A stretch of 64,000 bases of DNA from Thiomicrorhabdus immobilis (GTDB taxonomy: Bacteria > Pseudomonadota > Gammaproteobacteria > Thiomicrospirales > Thiomicrospiraceae). Under the pieces are notes generated by a model. It did no database searches. It saw only the letters and a list, made by a program, of their open reading frames with translations, and had not been told where the DNA came from. The stretch is taken from the NCBI RefSeq assembly GCF_021654855.1, contig NZ_AP024202.1:744001-808000 (forward strand), read 5' to 3'. Within the stretch, counting starts at the first letter, position 1, and the number at the start of each line of letters is the position of its first letter. Positions 53,083-57,266 of the stretch are shown piece after piece. The position numbers were made by a program, and so were the translations under genes.

Positions 53083-53132
53083 GATTAAAACGGTTATCTG
53101 ATTAAGTTGGTTTTATGACATGAAAAATGAAG

Positions 53133-53165
53133 AAGCCCGTAAACACTTAAAGTGTTTACGGGCTT
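53133..53165 (-). terminator. Long hairpin terminator of the peptide cluster
   Basis: 16-base arms AAGCCCGTAAACACTT (53133-53148) and AAGTGTTTACGGGCTT (53150-53165) with a single-base gap, one of the strongest stems in the window. It lies about 90 bases past the last peptide stop. A second inverted repeat (CTTAGCCGCT near 53175, AGCGGCTAAG near 53214) lies between it and the last peptide gene. Confidence 0.8.
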
Positions 53166-53253
53166 TTATTGTTCTTAGCCGCTAGGCTAGGAGGAGAGAT
53201 AAAGAGGCATTTAAGCGGCTAAGAAACAAAGGGTGATAGGCTTTTAAACGAGA

Positions 53254-53388
53254 TTAAAAAACCATATCTAAATGCGGTGACCAATCTGGAATATAGATGC
53301 CAGCATCTTCATATTCAGCCATGTGGTGAGCGGATGCTACTGATGAAATTCCAAAAGTCAAAATCGCTGCTAATAGTACTTTTTTCAT
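53254..53388 (-). CDS. Secreted micro-peptide 1 of three (His-His start, HLDMVF end)
   Basis: A 44-residue gene product. The N-terminal 20 residues form a clear Sec signal (MKKVLLAAILTFGISS, cleavage after ASA). The predicted mature peptide begins HHMAEYEDAG, continues IYIPDW and ends SPHLDMVF. AAGGAAA sits about 8 bases before the ATG. Two paralogues lie just upstream in tandem with the same length, signal type and end. It is the last gene of the set, followed by a strong hairpin. I do not recognise the family. The acidic, His-rich mature peptide could bind a metal, but that is inference. Confidence 0.8.
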   Translation of the reverse strand: MKKVLLAAILTFGISSVASAHHMAEYEDAGIYIPDWSPHLDMVF

Positions 53389-53441
53389 GTTATTTCCTTT
53401 ATATTGCTTTTTGATAATTCAAATTTTAAAAGCGGCTCAAT

Positions 53442-53576
53442 TTAGAACACTAGTTCTAAATGTCCTGAGTTGTCATTGATGTTTCCACCGGCGTTATCGC
53501 TTGGTGAATTATGATGAGCCGAAGCGGTGGTTACTAATCCAAAGGTTAATAAAGCGGCTAAAAATACTTTTTTCAT
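53442..53576 (-). CDS. Secreted micro-peptide 2 of three (divergent middle copy)
   Basis: Also 44 residues with a signal (MKKVFLAALLTFGLVTT, cleavage after ASA). The mature peptide starts HHNSPSDNAGGNIND and ends SGHLELVF. It keeps the His-His start, the (D/N)AG near position 9 and the HL-acidic-aliphatic-VF end, but the middle is Gly/Asn-rich instead of carrying the IPD and aromatic residues of its neighbours. TAGGAT is a plausible ribosome site. Spacing is 53 bases to copy 1 and 48 bases to copy 3. Keeping only the ends points to functional ends with a variable centre. Confidence 0.78.
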   Translation of the reverse strand: MKKVFLAALLTFGLVTTASAHHNSPSDNAGGNINDNSGHLELVF

Positions 53577-53624
53577 TGTTCTATCCTATTTTTTATTAAG
53601 TCTATATATCTTTTGTTATTCAGG

Positions 53625-53759
53625 TTAAAAAACCATATCTAAATGTGGTGATGTATCAGGGATAAACTCACCTGCATCTGGGTTAGCGGCCATGTGGTGT
53701 GCTGAAGCGGCTGTACTGATTCCAAAAGTTAGTAGTGCTGCAAAAATAATCTTTTTCAT
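53625..53759 (-). CDS. Secreted micro-peptide 3 of three (first in transcript)
   Basis: 44 residues; the signal peptide MKKIIFAALLTFGISTA is cleaved after ASA. The mature peptide starts HHMAANPDAGEFIPD and ends SPHLDMVF, very close to copy 1. CAGGAAAAG is well spaced before the ATG. It is the first gene on the minus-strand transcript; two related 17-base inverted repeats lie about 155-210 bases upstream. Signal peptides of all three copies are nearly identical, indicating recent duplication or gene conversion. Confidence 0.8.
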   Translation of the reverse strand: MKKIIFAALLTFGISTAASAHHMAANPDAGEFIPDTSPHLDMVF

Positions 53760-54129
53760 GTTCTTTTCCTGTTAATAGCTTTTTTAAAAATTTACTAAGT
53801 TTCTTAATAGTTGGAGAAATGTGATTCACTCATTCTTTATACTTACTGAGTTTTGCATCACGCTTAATAAGATAAGGCTTTTATACGTTTAACTAGTTTA
53901 AGGATTTTCACTAAATGTTAAAAAGTTACATATCTTGATTTGCATATTAAATGTAAAAATATTACATGTCAAATATAATATGCATTATTTTTACAGTAAA
54001 TAGCCATTTTTTTAGTTAACTTTATGAAAGTAATGGGTTTTATGGATACGAAAAAAGATTTTTAGTGTTGGTGGAAACATTGAGAGGGGGATTTATTAAA
54101 GGTTTAACAAGAATTTAAATAATAAAAAA
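53760..54129 (-). other. Upstream control region of the peptide cluster
   Basis: 370 bases without coding frames, A/T-rich, between the first peptide gene and the terminator of the large lipoprotein gene. A TATAAA on the minus strand (complement of 53880-53885) is a possible -10 element. The two 17-base inverted repeats at 53915-53931 and 53951-53967 lie upstream of it. Confidence 0.5.
53915..53967. promoter_or_regulatory. Pair of 17-base inverted repeats, probable operators
   Basis: ATGTTAAAAAGTTACAT (53915-53931) and ATGTAAAAATATTACAT (53951-53967). Both have the form ATGT(T/A)A-N5-TTACAT; the second is a perfect inverted repeat, the first has one mismatch. They start 36 bases apart. The layout suggests two dimeric regulator sites upstream of the peptide promoter. 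The regulator is unknown. Confidence 0.5.
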
Positions 54130-54155
54130 GGCCATTACATATTAATGTAATGGCC
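54130..54155 (-). terminator. Terminator of the large lipoprotein gene
   Basis: GGCCATTACAT (54130-54140) and ATGTAATGGCC (54145-54155) with an ATTA loop; on the minus strand it runs into T residues. It separates the lipoprotein gene from the peptide cluster. Confidence 0.85.
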
Positions 54156-54224
54156 TGGTTTTAAGAATTAAGCCTTAATATTAGATGAATCTTAATAACT
54201 AAGGCTTAAGTTACTGACTCGCTA

Positions 54225-57191
54225 TTATTCAGGAACTTCTTCAGTGTAGTCTTTACGCTGAGCCCAAATGTCGCTACCTAATAGATAGTCTGCCGCACTA
54301 TCAGGTGCTTCTTCTGGGTCTAGTTCTTGTAACCAGATTGAGTAAAGTGTTTTACCATCAGGAGAAGCAATATTCTGTACCTCTTTCTCTTCAGCAACTG
54401 ATTGGGCAATCGCTTCATTCATGTCATCAACAGGTACTGCTGCATCAGGATTTGATGGTACTTTTTCCCAGGTGTCACCACCATCGGTTGAGCGAGTTAG
54501 GAATAAATCTTCCTCAATCCCCGTTCCCATTTCGACTGTTCCGTAGGTTATAAACACGGTATTTGGATCTCTAGTTTCTAACCCAGGAATCGCTTCAGAG
54601 GTTGGAATCAATCTTGGATCCAAGGTTGAAATGATGTTATTGGTAATGTTTGATACATTAAATGGAGTTGTCCAGTTTGTACCATTATTATCAGAACGAG
54701 TTACTGTAAAGTTGTTAGACAAGTGCCCAACCCCTGTTAAACGCCATGATGGGGTATATTCATAACCAATAAAGATAGTGTTGCCACTTAAGTAACCACG
54801 TGGAGAGAAGGTGTTCTCCCAGTTGTTTTCCCAAGTTGCATCATCTAAGTTAGCTTCACTCCAAGAACCCACGGTTCCTTCATCATCAACCGCAACGTGC
54901 GAGCTTAAGTTCCAGCTATTAGAAGGCCATGTTTCAGTACCCATAATGGCTGCCATATCTTCTTTGGTATTTAAGTTAGATACATCGTAACCACCTTTGG
55001 CTAAACGTAAATACATGTCAGAAGAGGCACCTTGGGTTTCAATTCCAGATTTATATAGAATTCCCCATAAATGCGCATCCGGAGCTATCGCATCAGTTCC
55101 TAGACCATCCGTTCCTAGAACATCTTTAGAATCAACTTGAGTAATCAATGTTAGACGACGGACGTTTTCAAGCACAGGTGTGCCATCTTCTTCATTGGGT
55201 CTAAGCTCATTAACAATTGTTCCCGCAGCAATTGGAGTTGGAGTTGTCATGTCAAAAGAGTGTACATAAGCGATTTTACCTTGGTCTTGAACCGGAATGG
55301 TATCTAAGGTTTCACTATTTGGAACCCCTGGTAAGCTGGTCGCTTCACCTTTTGTTTCTTCATAACCTAAGATAACTTTATTGCCAAATAGGCCAATAAT
55401 TGGTCGTGAAGCTCCTGTATCACCATTTAACAGCTGTTTTTCTACAATGTCAGGCGTATCGTTGTAAATTGCTCTGATTGGATCATCGTAGTTGCTAAAA
55501 CATTTACCGTTATCGCGGTCATCTTCACCAGGGGCAGCTGTAAAGGTACCATTGTCTGCACAAAGTTTTGCACAATATTGAGCACCTGTGCCATTGTCTA
55601 CGTTCTCTTGTAAACAGACTGCGTTATCACTGATTGGCACTGGCGTTGCAAAGCTATACAGTGCTTTTGGTTTTAAGGTTTCATTATCGGTATCAGGAGT
55701 GCCACCTATTTCTGCATTTGGGTCAGCAATATCAAATTTTTCCATTTCGATGTAGCTATACCAAATGTCGGTTTTATGATTTGTGGTTGCTCCACTCCAT
55801 CCTTCACCTGGACCAGAACCACTACCAGGTCGTAAACCATCTGGGTCTTCTTGCCATGAAAGTACAAAACCTGTTGTATCTGATGCAATCGTCACTTTGT
55901 TTGAATCACGACGACCAGAGGTTAATTGTTCAGGAGCAAACCAGTCAATATCGTGTTCTTCTTCATTTAACACACCACGAGCCACCCAAATACAACTAAA
56001 AGGTACTTCGTGAGCTTCAACGGTTTCTCCGGCATATTCTTCAATCCCTTCATAGTTGATTGTACCTTGAGGGCCATTGACTAAATATAAGTCGTCTGGA
56101 TAAGTGGTTTTACCATCTACAATAACCTGTTCAAGATTGGATGGGTTACCGCTTGGGCAAAACTTATCATTCCAAGCCACCAAGACTTTGTTACCTTCGG
56201 TTTTCATTGCAGGTTTAAAAGAGTGACCATAGTAAGGCAGTTTTTCACCGTTACCATAGTAGTCGACTTCAATAGATGAGTTTTCTGCCGTGTTTGAAAT
56301 ATTAACTGGTTTCCAGGTAGCTCCCTTATCAAGTGATAAGGCCACAAAGGTATCGGCAAAGTGTTCAATATCTGGAAGTTCAGAACTACCTGTTCCCATT
56401 AAAAAGTCACCTGTCATGGTGTCTGTATAGCTTACTAATAAGGGTCTTACTGCGGGTGCAGTATCATCTACAATGCCTGCGGCAGAAGTTTGTGCAGTAT
56501 GTAGCATCATGCTGGCAATGCTGTGACCGCCACTTCCCATCGCAGGGGTTCTAGAGATGTTCTTGTGTACAGTAATATCACCACTGATTGCGGAATCGAA
56601 ATGGTATTCAGCTTCCTGTTCCGTTACAACGTGATCATCTGTTGATTCTGTTTCGTCAACTACGGTTTGTAATATAGTGGCTAATTGAGTAGCAAAAGTT
56701 TCTGCTTCAGCAGGCGTCATCGCTGAAAAATCGATTTCATCCAAGTTGATGCCTTCATCATCCAACGCTTTTTCTAAAGCGGCAATGGATTCTTCTGTAA
56801 TGGTAATGCCATTTGAAGCTACACCATCACTATCCAAAGACTGTAATAAAACCAAAATATTCAACACTCGTTGGTCTAGAGTGGCATCAGGTCCAAAGAA
56901 ATCTTTTGGCGTCACGTCTTCTACCGAACCAAGTAATTGGCCTAGCCGAATCTTGTCACCAAGATAGAACGTTACCATGCTACCAGGTGCAAAATTGTAA
57001 TGACCACCATTTTCTGTTTTACCGTTGTATCGACCTTTATAGGTTAAGCCATCAACCGCCCCATCCACAAACGTCCCAACAGATGCTGAATCAGATGAAT
57101 CACTAGATGAACTATCAAAACAGCCTCCTAAAGTTCCACCAATTGCCATGGCAACAGCTATGGCAACCGGGTTTTTTAATAATTTTTTCAT
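54225..57191 (-). CDS. Very large Asp-box (BNR-like) surface lipoprotein
   Basis: About 988 residues. ATG 57191 is preferred over 57224 because AGAGG is properly spaced and the lipoprotein signal (MKKLLKNPVAIAVAM, lipobox TLGGC) starts there. After the Cys comes a Ser/Asp-rich tether, then VGTFVDGAVDGLTYKGRYNG. Asp-box motifs (S-x-D-x-G-x-x-W) occur as LDKGATWKP, DNNGTNWTT and TDGGDTWEK, indicating a sialidase-type beta-propeller. It is highly acidic. I recall similar proteins being named choice-of-anchor type, but a ligand is not known. It is divergent from the nitrilase-family gene and next to the micro-peptides. Confidence 0.75.
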   Translation of the reverse strand: MKKLLKNPVAIAVAMAIGGTLGGCFDSSSSDSSDSASVGTFVDGAVDGLTYKGRYNGKTENGGHYNFAPGSMVTFYLGDKIRLGQLLGSVEDVTPKDFFGPDATLDQRVLNILVLLQSLDSDGVASNGITITEESIAALEKALDDEGINLDEIDFSAMTPAEAETFATQLATILQTVVDETESTDDHVVTEQEAEYHFDSAISGDITVHKNISRTPAMGSGGHSIASMMLHTAQTSAAGIVDDTAPAVRPLLVSYTDTMTGDFLMGTGSSELPDIEHFADTFVALSLDKGATWKPVNISNTAENSSIEVDYYGNGEKLPYYGHSFKPAMKTEGNKVLVAWNDKFCPSGNPSNLEQVIVDGKTTYPDDLYLVNGPQGTINYEGIEEYAGETVEAHEVPFSCIWVARGVLNEEEHDIDWFAPEQLTSGRRDSNKVTIASDTTGFVLSWQEDPDGLRPGSGSGPGEGWSGATTNHKTDIWYSYIEMEKFDIADPNAEIGGTPDTDNETLKPKALYSFATPVPISDNAVCLQENVDNGTGAQYCAKLCADNGTFTAAPGEDDRDNGKCFSNYDDPIRAIYNDTPDIVEKQLLNGDTGASRPIIGLFGNKVILGYEETKGEATSLPGVPNSETLDTIPVQDQGKIAYVHSFDMTTPTPIAAGTIVNELRPNEEDGTPVLENVRRLTLITQVDSKDVLGTDGLGTDAIAPDAHLWGILYKSGIETQGASSDMYLRLAKGGYDVSNLNTKEDMAAIMGTETWPSNSWNLSSHVAVDDEGTVGSWSEANLDDATWENNWENTFSPRGYLSGNTIFIGYEYTPSWRLTGVGHLSNNFTVTRSDNNGTNWTTPFNVSNITNNIISTLDPRLIPTSEAIPGLETRDPNTVFITYGTVEMGTGIEEDLFLTRSTDGGDTWEKVPSNPDAAVPVDDMNEAIAQSVAEEKEVQNIASPDGKTLYSIWLQELDPEEAPDSAADYLLGSDIWAQRKDYTEEVPE

Positions 57192-57266
57192 AAAGCCTAT
57201 CCTCTTTATTGGTAATAAGTACAAATCCTCAGTAGATACTATATTTGTATAGTGATTGGGTATATA

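Follow-up and report, generated by a model that had tools for sequence, protein, structure and literature searches.

Tandem genes for short exported His-His peptides in Thiomicrorhabdus: an apparently undescribed, genus-restricted family with a possible role in metal binding

What would a sulfur-oxidizing bacterium gain from three consecutive genes for related, very short exported peptides? The question is raised by positions 53254 to 53759 of a 64,000-nucleotide stretch of the Thiomicrorhabdus immobilis genome (contig NZ_AP024202.1, positions 744,001 to 808,000; hereafter the window), where three open reading frames (ORFs) encode precursors of what we call HH peptides, after the two histidines with which the mature forms would begin. 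We find that these frames belong to a conserved peptide family that is under purifying selection, stands in tandem arrays, and shares promoter palindromes and a pattern of co-occurrence with genes for other secreted proteins. That this is a real family tied to a gene set for DUF2202 and other secreted proteins is, in our judgment, highly probable. As for its function, the sequences lead us to a tentative reading, at a probability of roughly 0.4, in which the HH peptide would be an extracytoplasmic binder of a transition metal, with copper favored, whose genes were amplified for dose.

The first-pass annotation had described the frames as three tandem minus-strand genes of 135 bases for 44-residue precursors, and their coordinates and a gap-free alignment with 23 of 44 invariant columns bear this out; each ORF is exactly 135 bp, or 44 codons, long. 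Cleavage after ASA, as suggested by the AXA pattern, would leave mature peptides of 24 residues, namely HHMAANPDAGEFIPDTSPHLDMVF from gene 1, the first in the array (53625..53759), HHNSPSDNAGGNINDNSGHLELVF from gene 2 (53442..53576), and HHMAEYEDAGIYIPDWSPHLDMVF from gene 3 (53254..53388). Identity to the 53254 copy is 73% for the 53625 copy and 57% for the 53442 copy, the most divergent of the three, in which Leu replaces Met22. All three mature parts do start with HH, carry A-G at positions 9-10 and end in H-L-(D/E)-(M/L)-V-F, as had been claimed, and each gene has a ribosome site of its own (AGGA, 6-7 bases 5' of the ATG); the signal peptides, said to be almost identical, are no more than similar in the alignment. 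A search of the complete genome, a single contig of 2.54 Mb, with the 53625 gene matched only the other two copies, with expectation values (E) of 7.3e-17 and 2.8e-10 and no fourth match at E up to 1, which excludes chance resemblance. The HH peptides appear to be short, acidic, Cys-free exported peptides made as precursors.

How far does the family extend? A profile search covered 62 genomes of the taxonomic family, 32 of them in the window's genus; the order-level search comprised the same 62. Strong matches (best E of 2.8e-23 or lower) were found in eight genomes, all within the genus (8/32), so that the frames are conserved in relatives, as the first-pass annotation had proposed to check. 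Weak partial matches in 10 further genomes (E of ∼0.01-0.1, mostly to the signal peptide) were left uncounted. Intact copies number three each in the window genome (G000 in our numbering), G025 and G027, two in G031, four in G049, six in G047 and seven in G046, the largest array, while G024 has one intact copy and pieces around a run of N. All 29 intact copies are 44 codons long and comprise 14 distinct mature sequences, with the subtypes AEYxDAGIYIP and xANPDAG recurring across species. The tandem units are 200 bp with a 97% match in G046 and 180 bp with a 99% match in G047, and each of these genomes has five identical precursors; these near-identical units point to a recent rise in copy number in both. 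Outside the genus, neither the full model (E up to 1e-4), run on a class sample with 368 other genomes, nor the mature-part model (E up to 0.01), run on a phylum sample with 397 others, found a relative, and searches of plasmids, phages and viral contigs gave no match. A pattern scan of genome contigs returned, among the matches listed, a single genus member, Thiomicrorhabdus sp. ZW0627. No Pfam or NCBIfam match of the window peptides reached its curated cut-off, and a literature search, at the level of result lists, turned up nothing relevant. On the basis of these database and literature searches, the family is apparently undescribed and so far restricted to the genus.

All arrays occupy one chromosomal site, convergent with an ABC-F ATPase gene whose neighbor was identified by eye as htpG; between the array and the ABC-F gene, the window has a DUF2339 gene. 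The ABC-F flank was read in 30 genomes, and in 22 of them the array is absent and other genes come next. In this check only short flanks were available for G033 and G036, and an array behind an insertion, as in G000, escapes a flank of 1.5 kb; absence away from the ABC-F site, and in G037 and G040, rests on the profile search. In a single-gene ABC-F tree of 30 genomes, good support was obtained for 11 of the 26 inner branches.

The pattern of substitution speaks to whether the frames are read as protein. Each species was represented by a single copy, its first, other than G046 (third copy) and G047 (second copy). The ratio of nonsynonymous to synonymous differences (pN/pS), with codon-bootstrap ranges, is 0.197 (0.108-0.292) for the whole precursor, 0.146 (0.061-0.259) for the signal part and 0.221 (0.100-0.371) for the mature part; because synonymous differences are near saturation, these values are only rough, though far from 1. 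The peptides are therefore under purifying selection at the protein level in signal and mature parts alike, the outcome of a second check that had been proposed. In all 29 intact copies a hydrophobic Sec-type signal ends in ASA and HH follows directly; H19 and F24 are likewise invariant, and M22 is present in 28. None of the 29 mature parts contains Lys, Arg or Cys, and each has 2-5 acidic residues.

The promoter region ties the array to other genes. A sigma-70-type promoter, TTGACA-17-TAATAT, is predicted at 53944..53972 on the minus strand, where the following elements also lie. Palindrome 1, a putative operator (ATGTAATATTTTTACAT, 53951..53967), lies in the -35/-10 spacer and has the form ATGTAA-N5-TTACAT; palindrome 2, also a putative operator (ATGTAACTTTTTAACAT, 53915..53931), lies 36 bp downstream with one mismatch to the pattern. 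The first-pass annotation had noted upstream inverted repeats, and these exist (53945-53967/53980-54002); the conserved elements, however, are the two 17-bp palindromes. Judged from the predicted -10, a probable 5' leader of ∼178 nt spans 53760..53937; it gave no Rfam match over the gathering score in a riboswitch check, and its short blocks GTGATGCAA.ACTC and GAATCACATTTC are kept in four species. At the 3' end, where a dedicated strong terminator had been claimed, a terminator-like stem-loop is present, with a perfect stem of 15-16 bp at 53133..53165 (15-17 pairs over about 53131-53167), but its U-tract is weak on the array's own strand (CTTCATTTTT).

By eye, the TTGACA-17-TANNNT layout recurs in G027, G031, G049, G024, G046 and G047, and a 17-bp palindrome lies in the spacer of seven of the eight array promoters with a second one 36-41 bp downstream. 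The G025 array differs: its first palindrome immediately precedes the -35 and is followed 64 bp on by the second. The form is ATGTAA-N5-TTACAT in G000, G027, G031 and G049 (G000 and G027 deviate by one letter in the second palindrome) and ATG(G/T)(A/G)A-N5 with a looser mirror in G024, G046, G047 and G025. In the window, the pattern ATGKRANNNNNTYMCAT is matched exactly by palindrome 1 alone (1 vs 0.14 expected), and with one mismatch allowed there are 2 matches vs 2.8 expected; since the window alone gives a weak signal, the case for a shared site rests on recurrence across genomes. Across the eight array genomes the pattern has 42 sites vs 14 for a backward control, an excess that comes from G000, G025, G027, G031 and G049 (34 vs 8). 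We read 36 of the 42 contexts, and 31 of these are at genes of the set: 11 at the array, 8 at the main DUF2202 gene, 2 between a second DUF2202 gene and a divergent gene (G031, G049), 5 at heads of Met/Gln-rich or Gln-rich operons, 4 at a Gln-rich gene beside the LuxR gene, and 1 at a TsoY-family gene. The last encodes a membrane protein and stands right behind a perfect palindrome in G049 (L129 2620-3852). The remaining five sites lie elsewhere, four of them at one conserved two-gene junction. Palindromes precede Met/Gln-rich and Gln-rich secreted-protein genes in four array genomes; no site precedes the Gln-rich gene of G024, and in G046 and G047 this gene has a site with a single mismatch. 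By eye, the palindrome covers the core promoter or start region at the array, DUF2202 and Gln-rich genes, as would be expected for a repressor; in two cases, the Met/Gln-rich operon (G000 and G027) and the array of G025, it stands upstream of a -35, as would be expected for an activator. Either mode of action may therefore apply.

Which genes accompany the array? The main DUF2202 gene is present in exactly the eight array genomes, each time with a perfect palindrome upstream, and no palindrome site was found at three distant DUF2202 genes of array-free genomes. Second DUF2202 genes have a site upstream in two of seven cases and lack it in five. DUF2202 has a structurally solved relative in the ferritin-like protein MJ0754 (E of 6.5e-53); two plasmid records also carry DUF2202, in uninformative contexts. 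The choice-of-anchor O gene of the window (choice_anch_O, NF040591; 54225..57191, minus strand) is lipoprotein-like by its LGGC and starts at the ATG of MKKLLKN at 57191, the listed ORF running from a TTG at 57224. Genes of this type occur in nine of the 32 genus genomes, namely the eight array genomes and G021. A terminator-like site of its own at 54129-54156 makes a transcript separate from that of the array probable; with this site, and with no copy beside the array in G025, G027, G031 or G046, choice_anch_O was dropped as a co-transcribed partner and retained as a co-occurring gene. The genome G021 can be described as a natural half-module (L190-L192, L150): it has two choice_anch_O genes and a GAF-LuxR regulator gene but lacks an HH array and, at E of 1e-15, DUF2202, and the stretches read contain no palindrome even with one mismatch allowed.

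The GAF-LuxR gene is found in seven of the eight array genomes as well as in G021. We do not regard its product as the proven regulator of the palindromes, since G025 has palindromes and no detected LuxR, and G021 has the reverse in the stretches read; in G025, only 86 bases of contig C37 precede the choice_anch_F frame, and it is just there that G000 has its LuxR gene. A rival candidate is DUF6502, which is present in all eight array genomes and has a stretch resembling a helix-turn-helix (HTH) by eye. Against it stand a look-alike, also by eye, in the array-free G041 and a poor model (pLDDT 58), for which Foldseek gave no match with E under 0.001. DUF6502 also occurs in an operon (L117 2758-5304, L126, L130, L139) with a Met/Gln-rich secreted protein (Gln-rich in G025) and an SGFGGTG-repeat protein. 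Among the anchor proteins, choice_anch_F is followed by a small exosortase-family gene in G000 (L170 2124-4426) and G025 (L173 87-2521), with a similar pair seen by eye in G021 (L191); the small gene is closest to XrtH/XrtX, under their cut-offs, and the two are possibly an unnamed exosortase/target pair. A trio of choice_anch_O, a CPBP protease gene and a secreted DUF2202 is found in G024, G025, G046 and G047 (L136, L137, L138, L173 2960-6567); its protease is MrtJ by profile in G046 and by eye in the others, and JDVT-CTERM on choice_anch_O was confirmed in G025, where PCuAC, TonB receptor and CobN-like genes come after the trio. In the literature library searched, the terms DUF2202, DUF6502 and 'choice-of-anchor O' gave no papers.

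These observations bring us back to metal binding. The metal would be held outside the cytoplasm by the free N-terminus together with His1/His2 and the His19-x-x-Met22 pair, and tandem amplification would raise the peptide dose. The HH peptides would be one output of an exported set that includes DUF2202 and the Met/Gln-rich and Gln-rich secreted proteins, with the shared 17-bp palindrome at their promoters as a probable repressor site. Genes for a response regulator, a kinase, a TolC-like protein, an adaptor and a heavy-metal resistance-nodulation-division (RND) pump run divergently from the array in G024, G046 and G047. Families were tested for the G046 cluster and the G047 pump, to which the G024 and G046 pumps are 87% identical; the G047 pump exceeds the CusA/CzcA family cut-off (1022.7 vs 701.45 bits). 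DUF6502 and SGFGGTG protein genes also lie 3' of the pump in these three genomes, the G047 one matching DUF5666. In G025, a lipoprotein-type choice_anch_O lies 357 bases after CusB-, CusA- and outer-membrane-type genes, the CusA-type pump scores 1319 bits to CusA and retains CusA's three Met, and a PCuAC gene adjoins DUF2202. The CusA operon and PCuAC gene of G025, like HH, H19 and M22, are consistent with the metal role put forward in the first-pass annotation, which we nevertheless can only infer.

Several points weigh against this role. The G047 pump scores higher to the zinc pump ZneA than to CusA (680 vs 575 bits) and carries Q, D and E in place of the three Met of CusA. A relative of the RND pump with at least 64% identity is present in 29 of the 32 genus genomes (three part-length), with or without arrays, so that the local efflux genes were discarded as a diagnostic partner and count as weak context only. 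Copper neighbors occur in one genome only, G025, and no recognized metal gene was seen beside the window's own array, whose copy 2 lacks both Met22 and Met3. The palindrome sites of G024, G046 and G047 are hardly above control (8 vs 6 together). Finally, three His in a peptide of 24 residues do not by themselves imply any binding. In sum, the genomic context suggests a metal, and copper is supported in one genome only. A fuller scheme, which we consider rather unlikely, would make the HH peptide a ribosomally made ligand in an undescribed extracytoplasmic system of Gammaproteobacteria for handling metal (copper), with the peptides as amplifiable mini-chelators or carriers, surface-anchored choice-of-anchor O/F proteins receiving or displaying them, a secreted ferritin-like DUF2202 protein oxidizing or storing the metal, and GAF-LuxR exerting control over the whole set through the palindrome.

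Known systems offer partial parallels. In the His-brace copper proteins (CopC, LPMO, PmoB), an N-terminal His is combined with a second His carried by a beta-sandwich fold. After the predicted cleavage the HH peptide would also have an N-terminal His and a further His; however, 24 residues fall far short of such a fold, and with no match at a curated cut-off the suggested membership is unsupported. SilE and PcoE are periplasmic disordered metal-binding proteins with repeated H-x-x-M/M-x-x-H motifs. The HH peptides resemble them in being exported, small and Cys-free, in having one His/Met pair of the H-x-x-M type, and in the heavy-metal RND and two-component genes near the array in three relatives. 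They differ in the HH N-terminus and in carrying one HLxM each (28/29 copies), the repetition being between genes and not within a protein; no Pfam or NCBIfam match passed a cut-off, although whether these libraries include SilE/PcoE was unchecked and no direct comparison was made. The PA0050 family (NF047882) is similar in length (∼45 residues) and signal peptide, but where the cut-off is 45 bits the window copies reach 13.5, 15.0 and 14.2, and the match is confined to the signal (residues 1-20/21). Small size, export and conserved Cys residues characterize the bufferins and other MNIO-modified copper peptides; the HH peptides share the size, the export and a possible copper role, whereas their 29 mature copies contain no Cys, and no maturase was seen among the array neighbors, although no aimed search was made. 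Class II microcins and bacteriocins, finally, have a double-glycine leader, in place of which the HH copies have the Sec-type signal.

Among the candidate roles we rank metal binding first and a partnership at the cell surface second. The HH peptides may be structural or partner peptides that coat or bind the surface-anchored choice-of-anchor O/F proteins or an extracellular matrix, free of metal, and we hold this to be possible but on the unlikely side. The joint occurrence with choice_anch_O speaks for it, as do the choice_anch_F and exosortase-family genes beside the LuxR gene in G000, JDVT-CTERM on the G025 choice_anch_O with its protease MrtJ in G046, and the match of the regulator HTH to the biofilm regulators CsgD and EpsA, which is far under the cut-offs. 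G021, however, has two choice_anch_O genes and the regulator gene yet no array, and a coat does not require invariant His residues. A further idea is that the peptides are cell-to-cell signals, perhaps sensed by the GAF-LuxR regulator or reporting its state: the regulator gene accompanies seven of the eight arrays, the top Foldseek matches of its model are quorum-sensing LuxR receptors (SdiA, E of 1.1e-8, TM only ∼0.37), and peptide subtypes differ among species. We judge such signaling quite improbable.

Small, exported, tandem and species-variable peptides also call to mind bacteriocins, and an antimicrobial or toxin-like role had been mentioned in the first-pass annotation. We now disfavor it as very unlikely, because no mature copy has Lys or Arg and all are acidic, selection is purifying and not diversifying, and inspection of the site, with no aimed search, showed no conserved immunity gene or dedicated exporter. 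That the frames are untranslated or their product functionless, as cis-regulatory repeats or by chance, is hardly credible given a pN/pS of about 0.2 (0.15 signal, 0.22 mature), the constant length of all intact copies, and the profile search, in which full-length relatives match with E between 1e-22 and 1e-31.

The link of the uncharacterized DUF2202, choice-of-anchor O/F and DUF6502 exported families to one DNA site and a new peptide family means that their functions can be tested together, and a 24-residue peptide is easy to synthesize, so that metal binding is quickly decidable. With their homogenized tandem copies, the HH peptide genes would offer a small-scale bacterial counterpart of metallothionein gene amplification.
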